Origin: Apus apus
Taxonomy: Eukaryota; Chordata; Aves; Apodiformes; Apodidae
Reading direction: 5' to 3'
NCBI RefSeq assembly: GCF_020740795.1
Contig: NC_067294.1
Span: 17,737,001 to 17,801,000 of the forward strand
Length of the DNA stretch: 64,000 nt
Shown: in pieces, positions 8,183 to 64,000 of the stretch
Numbering within the stretch: position 1 is the first letter of the stretch
Layout of the letters: each line of letters begins with the position of its first letter
Notes under the pieces: model-generated
What the model was told of the DNA's origin: nothing
Databases searched by the model: none
What the model saw: the letters and a program-made list of their open reading frames with translations, nothing else
Made by a program: the position numbers and the translations under genes

Positions 8183-18971
<10,789 letters not shown>

Positions 18972-21820: not shown

Positions 21821-23446
21821 ATTTGGTTATTTTTGTACCTCATTTCCAAACTTCATGCTGTCTCCAGGCCTTGGGATTCTGGCAAAGAGTTTCCTGCTGG
21901 GACAGAATTCCCCTGGCTTGAAGGGCAGTCCTGAGGTGTCACCTGCAGGTGGGTGTTGCTGTGCTGTCCCTGCAGGGGTTGGGGACAGGTTGGGGGCCAC
22001 TGGATCTCCCTGCAGAGGGCTGGGGTGCTGCTGGTCCCCAAGGGATGGTGGGGACCTTTGGGCAGGTTCAGCTCTTCCCATCCCAGCCCTTGTGGTCACG
22101 GGGCAAGAGCTGCTGGTGGGCACCAGGTGGCAGCTGGAGCTCGGGGTTCTGCAGGGAGCCTTGCTGTCCTGCTGCTGCTCCAGAGCCTGTCCCAGGGAAG
22201 GGCAGGGCTGGGGGTGGGAGTTTGGGGGAGCAGGGTCCTGGCAGTGCCAAGGGGGGGAGGTGTGGGGGTGCCTGTGCCTTCAGGACTCAGTAGCTGTAGC
22301 TTCTCTTTTCCTCCAGCACCCACGTGGGCTGTGCCAACACTGACTGAGGAGCAGTGACCAGGGCCAGAACCTTCTCTCTTCCTCTGCTGCCCAGGAATAT
22401 TCTTGGGGGGAAAAAAATTGAAGGTCTGGCCTCAAACATGGGAGCTGGTAAATCCTGGATCCCAAATGTCTGCTGAGGAGAATGGATGCAGGAACTCCCC
22501 AGGTGTCCTTCCAGTATCACAGAATGGCTTGAATTCCGAGGATTCTCTGGAGTTCTCAGGTCCTGCTCCAAGCAGGCCTAACCTGAAAGCTGGACACTTC
22601 TCAGGGCCTTTTGGATTCCTTTTTCTTGAGTCTCTTGTAGCACAGGAACTCCCCCAGCTCTCTAGACCTACCTGGGCTCCTTCTCTGGTGCTCAACTGCC
22701 CTCGTGGAAACAATTCTCCTTATACCAAGGCAGGATTTCCCTTGTTGGAGCTGGTGGCTGTGGCTTCTTAACGTTTTCCCTCCTCTTTCTTCCTCATTTC
22801 TCCTGGCATGATGCTTGGGAGGACACACCAACAGCACCAGTGAACTTTGGTGGGACTTTGGGACCAGTTCTGGTGGGAAGCTGGATGTTCTTTTGCTGTT
22901 TGAAGGACACCAACCTGTTTGGAGGGCTTGCTCCCTGGATCTTCTAAGTGTTTCATCCCTCCAGAAGAGGATCCACTCCCTGGATCCTGCCCCATGAGAA
23001 GGTTTTCTACCAGTTCCCTGGGGTTCCTAGAAACCCAAGTCACTCCTCAAGGCCCCTGGGTGTTCTGTGTGCACAGCTCCAGTGGTGGCTGCTCCAGGAG
23101 GGGTTGGTACCTCCCTGCTCTTTCCCATCCCCACGTGTCAAGAGTCTGGAGAGAGGAACCAGGACCAGCTCAGAACCTTTCTGTAGCACAGCTGTCTCTT
23201 TCAGAAGTTGTGTTCCTCTGGCAGCAGGTGGTGGTGGTGCCTGTGCAGCTCAGACTGACCTGTCCTTACCCTTTTGGGCAAGAAGCACTTTTCCTGCCAT
23301 CTTTGTCCTGCCCTTGCAGTGCCCTCCCCAGGGCTCCTGGTGCCCAACTCAGGGGCAGGAGACATCCTGGTGCAGAAGTTTTGAGGTGGAGGTGACGTTT
23401 CTAACAGAGGATTTGTAGAGAAGTCAGTGGGAGTGAGATGGGGCCA

Positions 23447-23964
23447 CCCAGGGTTGTCCCCTTGTGTGTGGGGAGCTGCTGGTGTCCCCTGCTGTGACCC
23501 AGGGTTGTCCCCTTGTGTGTGGGGAGCTGCTGGTGTCCCCTGCTGTGACCCAGGGTTGTCCCCTTGTGTGTGGGGAGCTGCTGGTGTCCCCTGCTGTGAC
23601 CCAGGGTTGTCCCCTTGTGTCTGGGGAGCTGCTGGTGTCTCCTGCTGTGACCCAGGGTTGTCCCCTTGTGTCTGGGGAGCTGCTGGTGTCCCCTGCTGTG
23701 ACCCAGGGTTGTCCCCTTGTGTGTGGGGAGCTGCTGGTGTCCCCTGCTGTGTCCCAGGGTTGTCCCTTTGTGTGTGGGGAGCTGCTGGTGTCCCCTGCTG
23801 TGACCCAGGGTTGTCCCCTTGTGTCTGGGGAGCTGCTGGTGTCCCCTGCTGTGACCCAGGGTTGTCCCCTTGTGTCTGGGGAGCTGCTGGTGTCCCCTGC
23901 TGTGACCCAGGGTTGTCCCCTTGTGTCTGAGGAGCTGCTGGTGTCCCCTGCTGTGACCCAGGGT
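23447..23964. repeat. 51-bp minisatellite, about 10 copies
   Basis: The unit starts ccagggttgtccccttgtgt and includes gtggggagctgctggtgtcc. Point variants are tgtgtgtgg/tgtgtctgg, cccct/ccttt and gtgaccc/gtgtccc. Because 51 is a multiple of 3, frames stay open on both strands. Confidence 0.97.
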
Positions 23965-27114: not shown

Positions 27115-27697
27115 CTCCCTGCATCCCTCCATCCCTCCATCCCTGCATCCCTCTATCCCTCCATCCCTCCATCCCTGCATCCCTCCATCCCTGCATCCCT
27201 GCATCCCTCCATCCCTGCATCCCTCCATCCCTGCATCCCTCCATCCCTGCATCCCTCCATCCCTCCATCCCTGCATCCCTCCATCCCTCCATCCCTGCAT
27301 CCCTGCATCCCTCCATCCCTGCATCCCTCCATCCCTGCATCCCTCCATCCCTGCATCCCTCCATCCCTCCATCCCTGCATCCCTCCATACCTGCATCCCT
27401 CCATCACTCCATCCCTCCATCCCTGCACCCCTCCATCCCTCCATCCCTCCATCCCTCCATCCCTCCATCCCTCCATCCCTGCATCCCTGCATCCCTCCAT
27501 CCCTGCATCCCTCCATCCCTGCATCCCTCCATCCCTGCACCCCTCCATCCCTCCATCCCTCCATCCCTGCATCCCTCCATCCCTGCATCCCTGCATCCCT
27601 CCATCCTTCCATCCCTCCATCCCTCCATCCCTGCATCCCTCCATCCCTCCATCCCTGCATCCCTCCATCCCTGCATCCCTCCATCCCTGCATCCCTC
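27115..27697. repeat. CATCCCTS octamer minisatellite (about 73 units)
   Basis: Nearly perfect 8-bp units, catccctc or catccctg, over 583 bp. Only a handful of other changes occur (catacctg, catcactc, catccttc, caccccctc-type). Confidence 0.97.
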
Positions 27698-33024: not shown

Positions 33025-33270
33025 GATCTTCTAAAGAGGGGGGATTGAAATGAGACATGAGGAAGAAACTCTTTGCTGTGAGGGTGGTGAGAGCCTGGCC
33101 CAGGTTGACCAGGGAAGCTGTGGCTGCCCCATCCCTGGCAGTGTTGAAGGGCAGGTTGGATGGGGCTTGGAGCAGCCTGGGCTGGTGGGAGGTGTCCCTG
33201 CCCATGCAGGGAGGTTGGGACTAGATGATCTTTAAGTCCCTCCCAACCCAAACCAGTCTGGGATTTCATG
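33025..33270 (+). mobile_element. CR1 LINE, subfamily A
   Basis: From aaagaggggggattgaaatg to ccctcccaacccaaaccagt and ctgggatttcatgg. Confidence 0.93.
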
Positions 33271-33642: not shown

Positions 33643-33862
33643 ATAGAATCCCAGGCTGGTTTGGGTTGGAAGAGACCTCAAAGATCATCCAACCCCCTGC
33701 ATGGGCAGGGACACCTCCCACCAGCCCAGGCTGCTCCAAGCCCCATCCAACCTGCCCTTCAACACTGCCAGGGATGGGGCAGCCACAGCTTCCCTGGGCA
33801 ACCTGGGCCAGGCTCTCCCCACCCTCACAGCCCAGAATTCCCTCCTCATGTCTAATCTAATA
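33643..33862 (-). mobile_element. CR1 LINE, subfamily A
   Basis: Reverse, starting agaatcccaggctggtttgg. Confidence 0.93.
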
Positions 33863-33984
33863 GGTTTGAGGTCTGTGGGACCAGAGACACCACTTCGGTG
33901 GTTGCTGCAGTTGATCTCACAAGCAGGAGCTGGTGATGGCAAAGAAGAATCTTGCTTCCTGGCAGCCCTGGTGCCTGCACGTGT

Positions 33985-34470: not shown

Positions 34471-35241
34471 ACCAGAGAAACCAGCGCTCTGCAAGGTGAG
34501 GACTTTCCCATGGGCATCTTGGTCCCTTCTGGATTTATTTCCCAGCCATTTGCATGTGGCTGGCTGGGAAATAACATCCAGAGGATTTCCAGCACCTGCA
34601 CTCCCTGCTGGCTGAGCTCCCAACACCTTCTGTACCTCCTGCTTCTCTGAGCAGCTTTTCCCACGAGCAGCTCCGAGGCACAAAGTTCTTGGATCAGAAC
34701 TGGTCCCAACAAAGGTGAGATCCTTGCTGTGGCTTTGGGGATGGGGGTTTGGGTCTTGGCTCTTTCCAACTCAGGCAGCTTGGGCTCCTTCCTGTGGCTC
34801 CATCCCCCAGATTTGTGGGGATGTTTTTATTTCTCACGGCTGCACTGCCCGGGGTGGTGGAGGAAAGAGCCATGGCTGGAAGGTGCTGATGTGATGCCTG
34901 GCAGGAAGGACAGGGATTGTTGTGTCCTGGTGGTGCTGAGTCAGTGTCCTTGGAGGAAGGAAAGCAGAGGCAGGAGCAGGATGTGGGCTGCAGATGTATC
35001 CGTCCCTTGCACAGAGGATGAAGGCTCTGGCTGCTGCTCCCCTGTGCTCTGCTCTTTGCCCCACCTTGGCCAACATTTACCTTCCTCTGACATCCAGTGC
35101 CACCTCCAGGATGACTCCATTCCACCCAGGGCTGAGCCAGCCCTGCTGTGCTCCAGGTCACTCCAGGTGCCTTTGCCCCCTGCTCAGTCTTTAAACAGCT
35201 TGAAATGATGGGTCCAAACTCAGCTTTTTCTCTCCTTTTAG

Positions 35242-35310
35242 AGGCTGGAGCTGGTTGGATCCTTCCTGTCCTGCTCCATCCCTTACCAAGATACTGCAAG
35301 AATAATCATA
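35242..35310 (+). pseudogene. Possible further DIAPH1 FH2 exon relic (weak)
   Basis: After a cttttag acceptor one frame reads LVGSFLSCSIPYQDTARIII, which resembles the DIAPH1 segment IFLGSFRMPYQEIKNVILE with a 3-residue insertion. It lies in the right order upstream of the clear relics. The match is short and could be chance. Confidence 0.3.
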
Positions 35311-35407
35311 ATTTAAAAAAAAGGAAATAGAGGGTAATGCTTGGGGGGTGTTTATACCCAGACCTCTGACATCAGCCCATGTGAGGGTGGGGGTGAGCAA
35401 GGTTCAT

Positions 35408-35702
35408 AGGATCATGGGATGGTTTGAGTGGGAAAGACCTTGAAGATCATCTAGATCCACCCCCCTGCATGGGCAGGGACACCTCCCACCAGCCCAGGCT
35501 GCTCCAAGCCCCATCCAACCTGCCCTTCAACACTGCCAGGGATGGGGCAGCCACAGCTTCCCTGGGCAACCTGGGCCAGGCTCTCACCACCCTCACAGCA
35601 AAGAATTTCCTCCTCATGTCTCACCTCAATCTCCCTCTTCCAGTTTTGATCCATCCCCCCTTGTCCTCTCACTCCCTCCCTTGTCCCAAGTCCTTCCCCA
35701 AG
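35408..35702 (-). mobile_element. CR1 LINE, subfamily A
   Basis: Reverse, starting ataggatcatgggatggttt. Lies about 270 bp upstream of the DIAPH1 relic exons. Confidence 0.93.
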
Positions 35703-35974
35703 CTTTGCCCTTGGTCTGAGCACACAGACCATCCAGGAGCAGAAAGGACCATATTTCCTGGGAGATCTTCAGCTGAGGGAGCACTGAGATGTGCCTGAAG
35801 TGACTTCCCTGGATCTGAGCAGGGAGGATCCACACTGCTGGCATCTTCAGAGGAGGGATGTCTGGAGTTCTGGTGACAGTTGCAGGGTAGAAACTCTGCT
35901 CCTGCTTAAAGCAAATATTTTAGGAATGTCCTTCTGTCTTTTTATGTTTTGTTGTGTGGTTTTTTTCTCTTTTA

Positions 35975-36972
35975 GTGTCTGCTGAGAACTCCAAGAAAAG
36001 CTGGAGCAGGACAGAAGTGCAGCTGGGGAATGTGCAGTGTAGGATTCAGGACTCTCCAGCCAACACAGAGGAGAGTGACAAATCTGTGGGCAAAAAAAAA
36101 AGGACAATGTCCTTTTGCTTTTAGGAAGAAACACGTTTCAAAGTGGAAGGTGAGCTGTGGCTGAAGGGATTCATGGGTGGCAGCAAAGTGTGGAGAGGGA
36201 GGGAAAGGGTCCCTGATGTGGGAAAAGGCTTTTTGGTTGTGGTGTGGACCGTGGAGGACTCCTCTGCAACTGGGAGGGATCCTGCAGAGCTTTTTGCTGT
36301 CGTCAGGGGATCTCTGACATTCTGAGCCTTCTTGACAGATGCACATTCCTTCTTTTGGCCTTTGGGGCAGGAGGTGTGAGGCCCAAACCCTGAGCCAGGG
36401 AGGCTGGATTCACCTCAGCCTGGTGATGGTGGTGCCTTGGAGCAGAGAGGAACCACAGACAGAGCTGGATGTTGCCATGCTTGGTGGTCTGATGCTCACT
36501 CTGATGTTTTCACATGATGGTTGTTTATGGTCCTTGATTTCTGGGGTTTGCACCTTTCTTAGGGATGCCAAGTTACAAGGAACAAGGAACCTCTGGATGG
36601 AATGGAGCCAGGACCTTCTGTTTGACCCCCAGGAAATGGCTGCTGGCACCTTCTTCCTGGGACTGAGCAACTTCAGAAATAAGTTCCTGGTGAGCAAGAT
36701 GTCCTTTCCTCTTCTTATTCTTAACTGTTTCCTTCACTGCTCAGACTGCCATGCTTCTTACCCCCCCTCTTCCACAGAGGGATGTTAATTGTGTGGTTTT
36801 CCCCCCACCCCCTCCATCCTGCAGCCCCTCAGCAGTTGTTTCTCCTGTTCTCCAGGAAGCTGTCAAGGAGAATCAGAAGCAGCACGAAGCAGGTGATACA
36901 TGGTGCACAGCTGGCAAAGGAGGAGACAGGAGCAGAGAGAGCAGCTGAGACATGAGTGCAGGTATGAGGTGC
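35975..36972 (+). pseudogene. DIAPH1: DIAPH1 (diaphanous formin 1) remnant: three FH2/C-terminal exons, frameshifted
   Basis: DIAPH1 is a Rho-activated formin that nucleates actin. Three collinear exon relics match its end. (a) 35975-36105: VSAEN, then LQEKLEQ after an apparent 1-base loss near 35990, then QLGNVQCRIQDSPANTEESD-KSVG back in the first frame; no donor is left. (b) 36552-36689: FLRDA, then LLFDPQEMAAGTFFLGLSNF-RNKFL, about 9 residues shorter than the mammalian exon, without an AG acceptor at the expected place but with a perfect gtgagc donor. (c) 36856-36972: a good acceptor (tctccag), EAVKENQKQHEA, then AQLAKEE in frame +1 (36905), REQL in frame +2 (36936) and DMSA back in frame 0 (36949). 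Two exons therefore use several frames, and a TGA closes the AQLAKEE frame. The strand and position between HDAC3 and PCDHG match mammalian DIAPH1. Seen: motifs and shifts. Inferred: loss of function. Assembly error is a less likely alternative. The terminal exon and most upstream exons are not recognisable. Confidence 0.82.
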
Positions 36973-37007: not shown

Positions 37008-37440
37008 AATCTTTGAGTGGTTTGGGGTGGAAGGGACCTTAAAGATCATCCAGTTCCAAACACCAGGCAGGGACACCTCCCACCAGCCCAGGTTGCTCCA
37101 AGCCCCATCCAACCTGCCCTTCAACACTGCCAGGGATGGGGCAGCCACAGCTTCCCTGGGCAACCTGGGCCAGGCTCTCACCACCCTCACAGCAAAGAAT
37201 TTCCTCCTCATGTCTCACCCAAATCTCCCTCTTCCAGTTTTAATCCATCCCCCTCATCCCAGCCCTCCCTGCCCTTGTCCCCAGTCCCTCCCCAGCTTTC
37301 CTGGAGCCCCTTCAGGCACTGGAAGCTGCTCTAAGGTCTCCCTGGAGCCTTCTCTTCTCCAGGCTGAACACCCCAACTCTCCCAGCCTGGCTCCAGAGCA
37401 GAGCTGCTCCAGCCCTGGGATCATCTCCGTGGCCTGAAGT
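37008..37440 (-). mobile_element. CR1 LINE, subfamily A
   Basis: Reverse, starting tttgagtggtttggggtgga, directly after the last DIAPH1 relic. Confidence 0.93.
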
Positions 37441-37979: not shown

Positions 37980-38228
37980 GTCCATGGATTAAAACTGAAA
38001 GAGGGGTGATTTAGATGAGGCATTAGGAGGAAATCCTTTGCTGTGAGGGTGGTGAGAGCCTGGCCCAGGTTGCCCAGGGAAGCTGTGGCTGCCCCATCCC
38101 TGGCAGTGTTGAAGGGCAGGTTGGATGGGGCTTGGAGCAGCCTGGGCTGGTGGGAGGTGTCCCTGCCTGGTGTTTGGAACTGGATGATCTTTAAGGTCCC
38201 TCCAACCCAAACTGTTCTGTGATATAAA
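37980..38228 (+). mobile_element. CR1 LINE, subfamily A
   Basis: From ccatggattaaaactgaaag to tccctccaacccaaactgtt and ctgtgatat. It lacks the 'catg' of catgcaggg in the 3' end (cctgcctggtgtttggaact), a variant shared with 37050-37070. Confidence 0.92.
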
Positions 38229-40885
38229 CAGTCTGATGACCTTTCCCAGCGCTGTACCCTGAACCTGGGAGCACCAAAACCAGTGGGACAACCTCTGTGG
38301 GGTCACCTTGAGATGGTTGTGATGCCCCAGGTTCCTCAGGCTGTGCCCTTACCCCTGAGTGAATCCTACAACAGCAGTGAAGGATTTGGGGAGCAGAAGG
38401 GGCCTGACACCCCTCCCTTGGCCAGATGAATGGCAAAGCCACCTTCTCATGTCACTGCTGTCCCCTTTCCAACACGGGTGTAGATCCAACCATCTCCCTT
38501 TGTAACAAAACTGCCATTTCCTTCACCTTTTTCCCCCATTCCATTAGGACTTTGATGACTTTAAGGCAGGAATTCTCCTGACCTGCTGCTACTGCAGGCG
38601 CAGCCCCTGCTGCCCCCAGCAGTGACAAGTGACCCCTCTCAGCAGTGGGGTTTGAATTCAACCTTCTGCTTGGCCCAGGAGGTTAATGTGGCTCTGAGAA
38701 CACCCTGTGCTGTCCCCACAGCGTGGCCTTTCTCCCTCAGGCTGCTCCCTGCTGCCAGACACATTCTTCACTTCCAACATATGGACTCAATTACTGTCCC
38801 TCTCCCATCATTTCCTGCCTCTTTGCCTTTCCTGCAACACATCCCCTCCTCCTGGCAGCTTGAACTCCCGTGGTGAGATGCTCTGCAAGGCTCTCACATT
38901 CCTCCCTGCCTCCCTCCCACTGCTTTGCTGCCTCTGACGGGGTGATCCTGATCCAGAGAAGGCTGCAGACCCCCCCACTGTCCCTAGAGCAGAGCTCAGG
39001 AACCTCCAGGGCTTGGCTTCCCACAGCAAAACTAGCCAGCCCCCTGAGTGCAGGTCCCAGCTCCCCCGGGTGGAGATCCCCACCCTGCCCCAGCATCGTT
39101 CCTACATCACCCTGTAGTTCTCAGCCAAGGCTTTAGGCTTTTTTTTTCCCTCTTCCCTTTTGAGGCTGGTGCCTTTCTGAGCCTCCATGCTTGGAAAGGA
39201 GCATCCAGCCACTCTGGGTTTCTCCTGTTGGCTTCTTTCCTGGGCATCATGTCCTGCAGAAAAGCCCCATGGCCCACAGCTTCTGCCTTCTCCATCAGTG
39301 CTCCTCTCCAGCCCTGCTCTGGGGGAGCCCTGGGTCCCTGTTGCTTTGGGGTGCTGGGAGTTTCACAGCAATCTGGGCTGATTGGAGGGGCAGGGGGAGA
39401 TGGAAACAGTTAAATCACACAAAGGAACCAGCTAATGATTCCCAGCCCCTCGCTGGCAGGTCTCAGCTTTCGGAAGGGGGTCTGGCCAGCAGCTGTGCCA
39501 GCAATTGTAGCTCCAAAAGCATGTTTTCTTTCTGTGTCAGCTTTCATCCCTGGCCCCTCTGGATTCCCCTGGCTCCCACGGATGCCAGAGTTTCCAGGGC
39601 TCCTGCTGCTACGAGGCCCTGTGACTGTTTTCCTCCAACGATGGAGTTAGATCATGGAGGGGATGAGGAAGGCACTGTTCCCTCCCTGCCTGCTTCCTGC
39701 CCCATCCTTCCCCAAGGATCCAAGAGATGCAGCAGCTCTTGCAAATGGAAAGAAAAGCTGCAGCTTCTGCACCTTTGGACCCTGGAGCAGCTTGGGGTGA
39801 AGCTCGGGGCAAGATCCAACAAGTATCTGTGGCTGAGCAGCTTCACCTGCAGGAGCCTGGTGGTGTCATAAGACTGACATGGTTAAATAGATGTGGCCTT
39901 TATATATAGTATAATCATAATAATCCATGTTATAATAAGCCTGGCTGCTCTGTGTCCAGGTTCTGGCATCTAAGGTCACCGAGCCCCAGCAACAGCCACA
40001 TGAGAACTGGTTTTCCCTGTGGCTGTGGTTTGTGGGCTGGTGTTCAGTTCTTTCCCAGCCCACTGCCCCCCCAAGGAGCAGGAATTCCTGGGGACCTCCG
40101 GAGTGCCAGGGCCCTGCTGCCCAGTTCCCAGGGAGCCCCTTGCGTGACCCCAGACTAACTCGGCGCTGCTTTTCCTGCCCACAGCAGGAGCACGTCGGGG
40201 GGAGCTCTGCCCTCAGGAGCATCACCTGGAACATGTAGCACCTCCCTCCCTTCTTCCTCCTCTTCTCCTGATGCCTTTTCCTATCGCAGGCAGTGGTGGC
40301 AGCACCGAGAGGGAAAGCCTGAACTTCCCAGATCAGGTAAAGTATAAAGGAAAAGAACAAACCCAGAGGCAGTGAAAGCAGAGGTGAGGCAGGGACCCCA
40401 ACTTCAGTGTCCTGGCATCCTTCCTCAGCCTTCCAGTCCCCTTGTCTGCCTCGGGCTGGGGTCAATCTGAAGTCCCCATTGGGCCACCACCCTGTCTCTT
40501 CCTTGGAGACCCTTCCCAGCAGCTCAGACACCCTCCCTGGCCTTGGCACCAGTGGGTGGGTAAGTGGAAGAAATCAGAGAGTCCTGCTGGAGCCTGTGAC
40601 TTGCTGCTGCCGTTCAGACAAGCCCCCAAAGCTCCCAGAGCCCCCACGGGTGAATCTGGACTGGTTTGCTCCCAGAGGAGCACCTCAGCCAGCCAGAGTC
40701 ACGGTGATGGGTGTCAACTCCCCTCCATGGAGCCCCCCTCTGACCTGTGGGGCTGTCTGCCCCCCCCTCCATCCTCACGGGCTCCTTTCACTACCCAAAA
40801 GCTGGGTCTGGTAGCCAGGCTTCCTCCCCCAGGCTGCCCTTCCCCAGCCTGCTGGTGCTGTCCCTGCCCTCTCAGCCATGTTCCA

Positions 40886-41505
40886 AGGGTGCTGGGTGCC
40901 CAGGGGTGCTGGGTGTTCAGGGGTGCTGGGTGTTCCACGTGTGCGGGGTGTTCCAGGAGTGCTGGGTTTTCAGGGGTGCTGGGTGCTCAGGGGTGCTGGG
41001 TGTTCCAGGGGCCCTGGGTGCCCAGGGGTGCTGGGTGTTCCAGGGGTGCTGGGTGCCCAGGGGTGCTGGGTGTTCAGGGGTGCTGGGTGTTCCACGTGTG
41101 CTGGCTGCCCAGGGGTGCTGGGTGTTCCAGGGGCACTGGATGTTCCACGTGTGCTGGGTGCCCAGGGGCGCTGGATGTTCCAGGGGTGCTGGGTGCTCAG
41201 GAATGCTGGGTGTTCCAGGGGTGCTGGGTGCCCAGGGATGCTGGGTGTCCAGGGGTGCTGGGTGTCCAGGGGTGCTGGGTGCCCAGGGGTGCTGGGTGTC
41301 CAAGGGTGCTGGGTGTTCAGGGGTGCTGGATGTTCCAGGGATGCTGGGTGTTCCAGGGGCTCTGGATGTCCAGGGGTGCTGGCTGCCCAGGGGCACTGGG
41401 TGTTCAGGGGTGCTGGGTGCCCAGGGGTGCTGGGTGTCCAGGGGTGCTGGGTGTCCAAGGGTGCTGGGTGTTCAGGGGTGCTGGGCGCCCAGGGGTGCCG
41501 GCAGG
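40886..41505. repeat. Variable 16-19-bp minisatellite (GGTGCTGGGTG core)
   Basis: About 36 units sharing ggtgctgggtg followed by one of ttcagg, ttccagg, tccagg, cccagg or ctcagg. The unit length varies, so no single frame is kept. Confidence 0.95.
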
Positions 41506-46934: not shown

Positions 46935-47075
46935 ACAGGGGTTGAAAGAAAGCAACGGGATGTGTTTATAGGAGGAACAGGTGGGAGGATGTGAGAAGAT
47001 TCACTGGTTGAGGAAGATGAGAGTGTTGGCGGGGGTGAGAGGGAATATTTGGGATCTGTGAGGAGTGGAGGGAGG

Positions 47076-47297
47076 AAGGGAGGGAAGGAAGGAAGGAAGG
47101 AAGGAAGGAAGGAAGGAAGGAAGGAAGGAAGGAAGGAAGGAAGGAAGGAAGGAAGGAAGGAAGGAAGGAAGGAAGGAAGGAAGGAAGGAAGGAAGGAAGG
47201 AAGGAAGGAAGGAAGGAAGGAAGGAAGGAAGGAAGGAAGGAAGGAAGGAAGGAAGGAAGGAAGGAAGGAAGGAAGGAAGGAAGGAAGGAAGGAAGGA
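47076..47297. repeat. (GGAA)n tetranucleotide array, about 220 bp
   Basis: Uninterrupted aagg units after a short ggaggaagggaggg lead. All-purine on the + strand. Confidence 0.98.
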
Positions 47298-55001: not shown

Positions 55002-55356
55002 TTGGCACTGCACCAGGTCCTGCCTAGCCCTGCAGCTCCCAGTGTCAGACCCAGGGTGACCTCCCAGCTCCCTTCAGGAACCCCGAAGGAGAGGGCAAGA
55101 GGGAGTTGGGTGAAAATTCAGCTTTTGGGGTGTTTTTTTCCACATTCCCCCCCCCCCCCCCCACTTCAACTCATTGCTGGGTGAGGTCATGGCTGGAGGA
55201 GCTGCCTGGTGGGACTCAGGCCATGACCACAGCCCATGCCAAGGAGCACGTCAGCGAGCAGGGTGCCAGCCCCACCCAGCCCTCCCCAGGGCCCAGCCAC
55301 CCCGAGCCAGCTCAGAGCTCACACATCTAATGGAAAAACTGGGTTGGCTCAATCCC

Positions 55357-61241: not shown

Positions 61242-61468
61242 CTACTTCTTCTCCTTCTTCCCGGATTTCTTCTTGTTGCCCCCGGAGGGGTTGGTGGCCT
61301 TGGCGTCGCGTTTGCCGGCGGCGTTGGTGAGGGTGGCGGTGCTGCCCGGGATGTAAACGTTCTGCCGGTAATCGGGGACGTGCTGCAGGGTGAACTGGGG
61401 GCCGTAGCGGGCGCTCAGCCCCATGGTGCCCGTCCCGCCGCCCAGGGTCGAGTTGGCATCAGCAGCTT
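61242..61468 (-). CDS. PCDHG: Gamma-protocadherin cluster, shared constant exon 3 (C-terminus)
   Basis: This is the last of the three constant exons spliced to every gamma-protocadherin variable exon; it encodes the end of the common cytoplasmic tail of these neuronal cell-adhesion receptors. On the minus strand an acceptor ctcccacag (61469 and upward) precedes a split codon and [20 protein letters not shown], then [40 protein letters not shown] and [15 protein letters not shown], with TAG at 61242-61244. The mammalian tail has the same blocks, with differences in the linker before the lysine-rich end (KRDGKAPAGGNG in mammals, [12 protein letters not shown] here). Constant exons 1 and 2 and all variable exons are not in the window and must lie beyond 64000. 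The frame is intact, so the exon is expected to be functional. Confidence 0.97.
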
Positions 61469-61587
61469 CTGTGGGAGGGGAAGGGGGAAGAGAAGCTGTT
61501 GGTGGCGGTCAGAGCTCCCCCCACGAAAAGCCCCGACGGCACCAAAAGGTGCTCACCAGCCCAGGGTGTCAAACCTGGACCTTGGTG

Positions 61588-62275: not shown

Positions 62276-62328
<53 letters not shown>

Positions 62329-62608
62329 GTAATATTAATATTATATAATATAGTATATATTATATAATATATTATATATTATATATAATATATTATATTA
62401 ATATATAATATAATATATAATATATTATGTATTATATAATATATATTTTATATATAATATATATATTATTTATAATTATATAATATTTAATTATATAGTA
62501 TATATAATTATATAATAATCATTAGTAATAATTATTATATAATTATTATATATTATAATTATTATATATACTATATACATTATATACATACATATATATG
62601 TATATATG

Positions 62609-62640
<32 letters not shown>

Positions 62641-62798
62641 CATATATATACATTATATATACTATATACTATATAATATATAATTATATAATAATTATTA
62701 TTAATAATAATTATTATATATATTAATATTATATATACTATATAATATATTATATAAGATATAATATATACTATATAATATATAATATCAATAATATC

Positions 62799-62873
<75 letters not shown>
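62260..62873. repeat. AT-rich inverted repeat: (ATT)n ... (AAT)n
   Basis: (TTC)n to 62276, then (ATT)n at 62277-62329. About 470 bp of TATA-type palindromic sequence follows, then (AAT)n at 62799-62873, the reverse complement of the left arm. Confidence 0.95.
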
Positions 62874-64000
62874 TTTCCTCCCCATTTCAAACCCTGCCCC
62901 CCGTGCCTCCCCAGCCGGGTTCATTCAGGGAGCAAAGCACACGAGATGAGGCAGAAAAAAAAAAATCCCCTCCCCTGCAATACCCCAAAATGGCTCTAGG
63001 AAGCCGAGCACGAAGGAAATCGATGCTAAATCTGATGCTCCGGATCCGCGAGCAGGGGGGAGGGGAAGGAAAATTCATCCCTGCCGCGCTGCAAAGCTCC
63101 AGCACCGAGAGAGCAAGCGTGGAGGTGGGGAAGGGAGCCGGGCCCACCCCCCCCCTTATCCTCCATCCCCCATCCCCCCCCGGGTTGCTGGAGGGTAGAG
63201 ACCAGATGGAGACAGGATGGATGGAGAAAGGAGGAGAAATGAGCACCGGGGGGAGGAGGGGGTTGGAGAGCAGGGCAGGAGCGGTGCTGCTGCCGTGAGC
63301 TGCTGCCTGATCTGCCCCGGTGCGACCACCCGTGCACGGCTCAGGGGGGTGTCCTTGCCCAGCCCTGCTCAGGAATGGTTTGCCAAAGCCCTGCCTCTGC
63401 CCTGGGTGCTGCGGATCCCATCTCAGCCTTTGCACTGCTCGGCGTGTGTGGCTGCGGAGGGTGAAGAGACCCAGCAAGGGCACCCGGAGGGCCCGAGGGA
63501 GAGTCCAGGGCTGCTCCTCCCTCCTTCCTCACGCTGGGAGACTGAGGGAACACAGGAAAACCAGCAGCAGAAAACCTGGGCTGGTCCCCTCGTGTTCCTC
63601 CTCGCTCCAGACCAAAATCCGTGCACACCTCCCTGTTGCCTCAGCCTCCCCCCCGAGCAGAGGGGGCTCAGCCAGTCAGAAAGCTCCACAAAAAGCTGGG
63701 CCCCATCCCACCAACCCCCTGAAATGTCACTGCGTGCACATCCCCTGGCAGAGGGCGGAAGGATGAAGCAGCTGCACGTTGAAAAGCTCCAGCTGCTGCT
63801 GGACAGGCAGAGGAAAACACACAGCACAGGCAGGATATTGTGCACCAAGGTCCAGGGACACACAGGGCGGTGTCCAAACCCGGGGTGGGAAATACCATTT
63901 GGCTTTTCTGCTATGGAAGCATCCACCAGCAGGAGGATTGTTCTATAGTCCCTATTAAATAAGTCCCAGACCTGGTGGAGCTTTGAGGACCTTGCTCTGG

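Follow-up and report, generated by a model that had tools for sequence, protein, structure and literature searches.

Does the DNA between HDAC3 and the protocadherin-gamma (PCDHG) cluster of the swift Apus apus hold the remains of the formin gene DIAPH1, and, if it does, did the gene die there or leave for another site? A sequence-only reading of this locus had proposed that it is either a unitary pseudogene or a relic left behind after DIAPH1 moved. DIAPH1 is a Rho-activated actin nucleator of broad use, with roles in mammalian hearing, proplatelet formation and brain size according to the cited part of PMC8533766. The question was addressed in a 64-kb stretch of contig C14 (C14:17737001-17801000, the window below) and in the complete assembly to which it belongs (1.10 Gb, 110 contigs).

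Results

The window is flanked upstream by HDAC3, for which 11 of 12 tblastn pieces are 82-100% identical and the remaining piece reads across an intron, and downstream by the protocadherin-gamma constant exon (Table 1). Further downstream, C14 carries many protocadherin exons between 17.82 and 18.41 Mb. As the relevant passages of PMC2764143 describe, the protocadherin cluster of human and anole has Diaph1 and Hdac3 as its nearest two neighbours on the 3′ side, both of them on the minus strand; since the same flanks are found here, DIAPH1 is expected in the interval from 19 to 61 kb of the window. That order bears out the place and orientation which the sequence-only reading had given for DIAPH1 in mammals, and the remnants described below indeed lie between HDAC3 and the PCDHG cluster, on the strand of HDAC3. 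The sole gap in the window, 100 N at 2066-2165, is outside the interval.

Table 1. Features of the window, in window coordinates, with the evidence for each.
Feature	Position	Strand	Evidence or remark
HDAC3 exons coding for residue ~47 through the C-terminus	8207..18968	+	upstream flank; tblastn, 12 pieces
Possible exon A, FH2 exon preceding relic exon B	35242..35333	+	protein score 39, 11/300 shuffles as good
Relic exon B (VSAEN...DKSVGK)	35976..36106	+	tblastn, 0/300 shuffles, exon phase
Putative decayed U12-type 5′ splice site, ATGTCCTTTT	36107..36116	+	ATATCCTTT there in DIAPH2 and DIAPH3
Putative U12-type branch-point-like site, TCCTTGAT	36531..36538	+	place matches CCTTAAC of the paralogs
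Relic exon C (...LLFDPQEMAAGTFFLGLSNFRNKFL)	36552..36689	+	phmmer, tblastn, 0/300 shuffles
Intron, intact GT..AG, phase as in DIAPH2/3	36690..36855	+	exon map of paralogs
Relic exon D (EAVKENQK...AQLAKEE...DMSA)	36856..36961	+	tblastn, 0/300 shuffles, exon phase
Protocadherin-gamma constant exon	61245..61472	-	downstream flank; tblastn 86% identity, E=3e-40

Three collinear exon remnants of a diaphanous formin, termed B, C and D, lie near 36 kb of the window, in gene order on the + strand (35976-36961, within 1 kb). The window was searched by tblastn with a DIAPH1 query from which the proline-rich FH1 part had been cut out, so that positions in the tblastn, scan and shuffle results follow query numbering, not true mouse numbering. 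Matches were obtained at 35975-36094 (E=3.7e-4) and 36537-36689 (E=8.3e-4), along with two short pieces in differing frames at 36856-36888 and 36875-36940 (E=1.3 each). Frameshift-tolerant local scores for the three exons were 81, 75 and 51 against shuffle maxima of 36, 40 and 45, with not one of 300 shuffles per exon as good as the actual sequence. Eight targeted shuffle tests, of which the one labelled '560-640 post-FH1' covered query residues 604-670, gave these three exons as clear, a possible exon A as suggestive and four segments at chance level (FH2 core, DAD and two segments from FH1 to the FH2 core, 300 shuffles each). For the DAD segment the reverse strand gave the better score (41 vs 30), and the upstream FH2 core exon was equalled by 141 of 300 shuffles; with no FH2 match on C14, a complete FH2 domain is absent.

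A scan of the 19-61 kb interval with 51 overlapping DIAPH1 segments (both strands, six shuffles, best 14 of the 51 listed) placed two segments far above their shuffles under frameshift-tolerant scoring, at 71 vs 39 and 64 vs 34. No general excess of the + strand was seen among the 51 segments, + being higher in 24 and - in 22. Smaller excesses, all out of gene order, were set aside as chance: the largest for a DID segment at 36268, inside the former intron (43 vs 34), and others at 55179 (45 vs 40), 31150 (41 vs 36), 58962 (37 vs 34), 42719 (40 vs 38) and 43821 (33 vs 32). When the middle exon alone was compared with PDB sequences by phmmer, six chains were returned at E<=10 and all six were DIAPH1 (one as a fusion), the best at E=0.012. 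Pfam recognised no family in four open frames; in ten long open frames selected from the interval it found none in nine and a weak low-complexity match below cut-off in one. The four formin motifs quoted in the sequence-only reading are all present where it had put them, and its three-exon formin relic is confirmed as a real observation by the ordered tblastn matches and the shuffle tests.

Repeats are frequent in and around the interval. Five copies of a repeat that we take to be CR1-like surround the relics in both orientations (33033-33202, 33704-33891, 35472-35659, 37066-37253 and 37998-38167). They are 84-98% identical in the pairs listed, and the 95-98% reached by some pairs points to recent activity of the family. 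Minisatellites with units of 17, 51 and 16 bases (40882-41498, 23446-23964 and 27116-27697, respectively) lie within the former gene interval and yield long open frames, in some of which Pfam matched no family, and an AGGA microsatellite of about 57 units (47069-47297) looks like a Lys/Glu-rich stretch when the DNA is searched in translation. An AT-rich repeat island (62276-62874) lies past the protocadherin-gamma constant exon, in a window that is otherwise GC-rich.

The exon map used as reference was that of the intact DIAPH2 and DIAPH3 of this bird, and the boundaries and phases of the relic exons equal theirs. Exon B has kept its acceptor AG (35974-35975) and its split codon, with a poly-A run about 6 bases longer as judged by eye. 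At the DNA level, compared for exons A and B, none of 500 shuffles aligned as well as exon B with the bird's own DIAPH2 exon or with its DIAPH3 exon. Compensating 1-base changes, said to be needed to read this exon, are one possible reading: of three frameshift penalties the lowest yields them, while the other two give an ungapped alignment. Exon C, whose start was placed by eye, has lost about 9 codons and kept its donor GT at 36690. The intron that follows keeps both GT and AG, as claimed, and together with the exon phases it marks the relic as a gene with its introns rather than a retrocopy. Exon D begins after the intact AG, is frameshifted and, by eye, falls about 30 bases short of the DIAPH2 exon; it ends in GACATGAGTGCAG followed by GT (36962-36963), where DIAPH2 has GATATGAACAAAG followed by GT. 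Two of the three frames ascribed to this last exon are clear and the third is arguable. The gene is disabled by the frameshifts of exon D, with FH2 core and DAD undetected. The statement that the other splice sites were lost went too far, for the AG before exon B and the GT after exon D survive, as do an AG and a GT at the edges of exon A if that exon is real.

Exon A is suggestive only as a fourth relic. It is bordered by AG (35240-35241) and GT (35334-35335), its matching frame contains a stop at 35328-35330, and its protein alignment has 7 identities in 14 positions. Its DNA did not match the DIAPH2 and DIAPH3 exons significantly, 487 and 282 of 500 shuffles, respectively, being as good.

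The junction between exons B and C was compared with the same place in the FH2 tail of DIAPH2 and DIAPH3. Both paralogs, each intact, carry there what, by the general consensus, is a U12-type AT-AC intron, with ATATCCTTT at its 5′ end and CCTTAAC near its 3′ end. The relic has ATGTCCTTTT and TCCTTGAT at the corresponding places (Table 1), so that the junction has the look of a U12-type intron in decay, more than of an ordinary GT-AG intron that lost its sites. ATGTCCTTTT is one of three near-matches on the + strand of the 64 kb and TCCTTGAT is the only + strand match in the window (both strands hold 4 matches against 9.2 expected); as such motifs show no excess over the whole window, it is their place and not their count that serves as evidence. 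Exon phases and the putative U12 intron agree with the DIAPH family as represented by the two intact paralogs of this bird.

Of 107 comparable residues, the relic has 52 in common with mouse DIAPH1, compared with 42 for bird DIAPH2, 38 for bird DIAPH3, 39 for human DIAPH2 and 33 for human DIAPH3. In a tree the relic joins DIAPH1 with support of 96/97, and the two alternative placements tested are each rejected by the AU test (p 0.029), with p 0.054 in the KH and SH tests. At 22 columns distinctive of DIAPH1 the relic agrees with DIAPH1 in 7 and with some DIAPH2/3 row in 5. Its branch is 0.88 substitutions per site long, that of mouse DIAPH1 near zero. Taken on its own, the sequence offers moderate evidence for DIAPH1 over DIAPH2/3; joined with the syntenic place, it makes the evidence for DIAPH1 strong. 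With DIAPH1 (mDia1) of human and anole the relic has in common its place and orientation relative to both HDAC3 and the protocadherins, and it shares DIAPH-family exon phases and residues such as NFRN and AVKENQK. It differs in consisting of FH2-tail exons only, one of them frameshifted, DID, FH1, FH2 core and DAD being undetected.

An intact DIAPH1 was sought across the 1.1 Gb, at thresholds too strict to show exons as decayed as those of the relic. There were 38 matches for FH2, 17 for Drf_FH3, 27 for the C-terminal half of DIAPH1 and 20 for its N-terminal half, none of them on C14. DIAPH3 and DIAPH2 loci accounted for 20 of the 27 C-terminal and 16 of the 20 N-terminal matches, and other formin loci for the remaining 7 and 4. 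Two intact DIAPH loci are present, DIAPH3 on C1 at ~35.6-35.75 Mb and DIAPH2 on C13 at ~14.66-14.80 Mb. Across five exons, identity to human DIAPH3 at the C1 locus (60-95%) and to human DIAPH2 at the C13 locus (65-86%) exceeds that of either locus to mouse DIAPH1 (46-73%). In the FH2 exon 733-814, C1 is 95% identical to human DIAPH3 but 72% to mouse DIAPH1, and C13 is 82% identical to human DIAPH2 but 70% to mouse DIAPH1; in the exon after it the values for C1 and C13, in this order, are 70% and 86%, against 58% and 70% to mouse DIAPH1. Exons 855-895, 896-952 and 953-996 rank as exon 733-814 does, with smaller gaps, and the DAD exon does not discriminate among DIAPH paralogs. The assembly search called for by the sequence-only reading therefore returned DIAPH2 and DIAPH3 and no third intact DIAPH locus by FH2, Drf_FH3 or either half of DIAPH1, and in a DNA-level search the relic is single-copy. 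Within the limits of the assembly, there is no intact copy beside the pseudogene.

The depth of decay was estimated by dividing the identity of 52/107 by an assumed bird-mammal baseline of 0.6-0.9, which leaves a retained fraction of 0.54-0.81 and corresponds to roughly 0.1-0.3 substitutions per site. At an avian neutral rate of about 2e-9 per site per year the relic would, very roughly, be 50-150 million years old, a depth that would fit an old loss.

A gene called DIAPH1 has been placed in chicken on GGA4. Its distance from a SNP at 6.28 Mb is 286.3 kb, and a SNP internal to PCDH19 lies at 5.26 Mb (cited passages of PMC3630158), positions that put the gene 0.73-1.30 Mb from PCDH19. In the present assembly PCDH19 lies on C13 at 13.935 Mb and the DIAPH2 exons are 0.72-0.86 Mb away. 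Because its position is that of DIAPH2 near PCDH19, the chicken gene of PMC3630158, as positioned in those passages, is probably DIAPH2 under a naming error in the annotation. DIAPH1 is named in two more chicken papers, without a place in the text cited (PMC6855842, PMC7528462). This hints that chicken, too, may have no true DIAPH1, and the loss may be old and common to many birds. We put forward, tentatively and with slightly less than even confidence, that DIAPH1 was lost before fowl separated from other modern birds, that living birds use DIAPH2 and DIAPH3, and that the GGA4 gene is a misnamed DIAPH2. Among the titles, abstract openings and passages of the matches listed, there was no report of DIAPH1 loss in birds.

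Discussion

The relic is, with high probability, a unitary pseudogene of DIAPH1, unprocessed and in its original place, a reading supported by its place, strand, exon phases, position in the tree and the finding of no third intact DIAPH locus. As in human and anole, DIAPH1 would once have had HDAC3 on one side and the protocadherin-gamma cluster on the other, and would have been inactivated in the ancestry of this bird. The N-terminus, DID, FH1, conserved FH2 core and DAD exon would since have been deleted or have decayed past recognition, leaving three, perhaps four, FH2-tail exons as a frameshifted fossil that presumably evolves neutrally and would encode no formin and no actin nucleator. 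The diaphanous functions presumably fall to DIAPH2 and DIAPH3. Observations that count against this reading include the survival of several splice dinucleotides and the lack of a stop in exons B and C as read (with 0.2 substitutions per site and 139 codons, P ~0.05, for stretches picked by similarity, which favours a lack of stops).

It is unlikely that DIAPH1 was instead duplicated or moved, for example to a poorly assembled small GC-rich chromosome, with the relic as the abandoned copy. Avian genes hidden by high GC are documented in the cited parts of PMC4539667 and PMC12954441, and this assembly may lack small GC-rich chromosomes. An additional event would be required, however, and within 1.1 Gb neither a third DIAPH locus nor a second copy of the relic DNA was found to speak for the move that the sequence-only reading had allowed; what room is left for it lies in unassembled sequence. 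That some sequence is missing may be hinted at by FMNL3, for which no locus was placed among the FH2 matches. The original site itself is not on a dot chromosome, since C14 extends past 18.4 Mb.

Less probable still, and very unlikely, is that the exons are transcribed and spliced today as a noncoding RNA or a short diverged protein under some constraint. Exons B and C with their frames still open, and up to six surviving splice dinucleotides (of which two belong to the doubtful exon A), are what such a transcript would have, but it is opposed by the frameshifts of exon D, the stop of exon A, an identity to DIAPH1 of only 52/107 and a branch of 0.88 where that of mouse DIAPH1 is near zero. Chance similarity or assembly error is highly improbable, for although single motifs are short and Pfam recognises none of the four frames, the exons are collinear, correctly phased and each beyond 300 shuffles, and their divergence is far over sequencing error with no gap nearby.

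An in-place DIAPH1 pseudogene is an ordinary type of event; the gene affected is what is interesting. The fragments of the PHCF formin in the human genome are likewise homologous blocks at the syntenic site of a formin lost from a clade, and differ in formin subtype and clade (Pruyne 2016, cited part of PMC5047451). The 'missing genes' of birds are also conserved vertebrate genes absent from a bird, reported in the cited parts as syntenic clusters or dot-chromosome cases (Lovell 2014, PMC4290089; PMC12954441). PMC12954441, in its cited part, met no pseudogenes of lost genes, whereas DIAPH1 here is a fossil on a larger chromosome. The term DIAPH1 is absent from the main texts of both papers.

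The sequence-only reading had called DIAPH1 dosage-sensitive, a point that calls for caution. Dominant human deafness is ascribed to gain of function. The hearing of mDia1 knock-out mice equals that of controls, and these mice have no microcephaly, with a dilated ventricle in some; recessive loss in man, by contrast, leads to microcephaly (all from the cited part of PMC8533766). Loss of DIAPH1 is thus tolerated in at least one mammal. A vertebrate lineage without DIAPH1 would be a knock-out made by nature, in which the reach of DIAPH2 and DIAPH3 can be seen. Birds have nucleated thrombocytes and regenerating hair cells. Should the loss extend to all birds, the label DIAPH1 in avian papers would have to be reconsidered, and birds would be a test of which DIAPH1 roles are truly essential.
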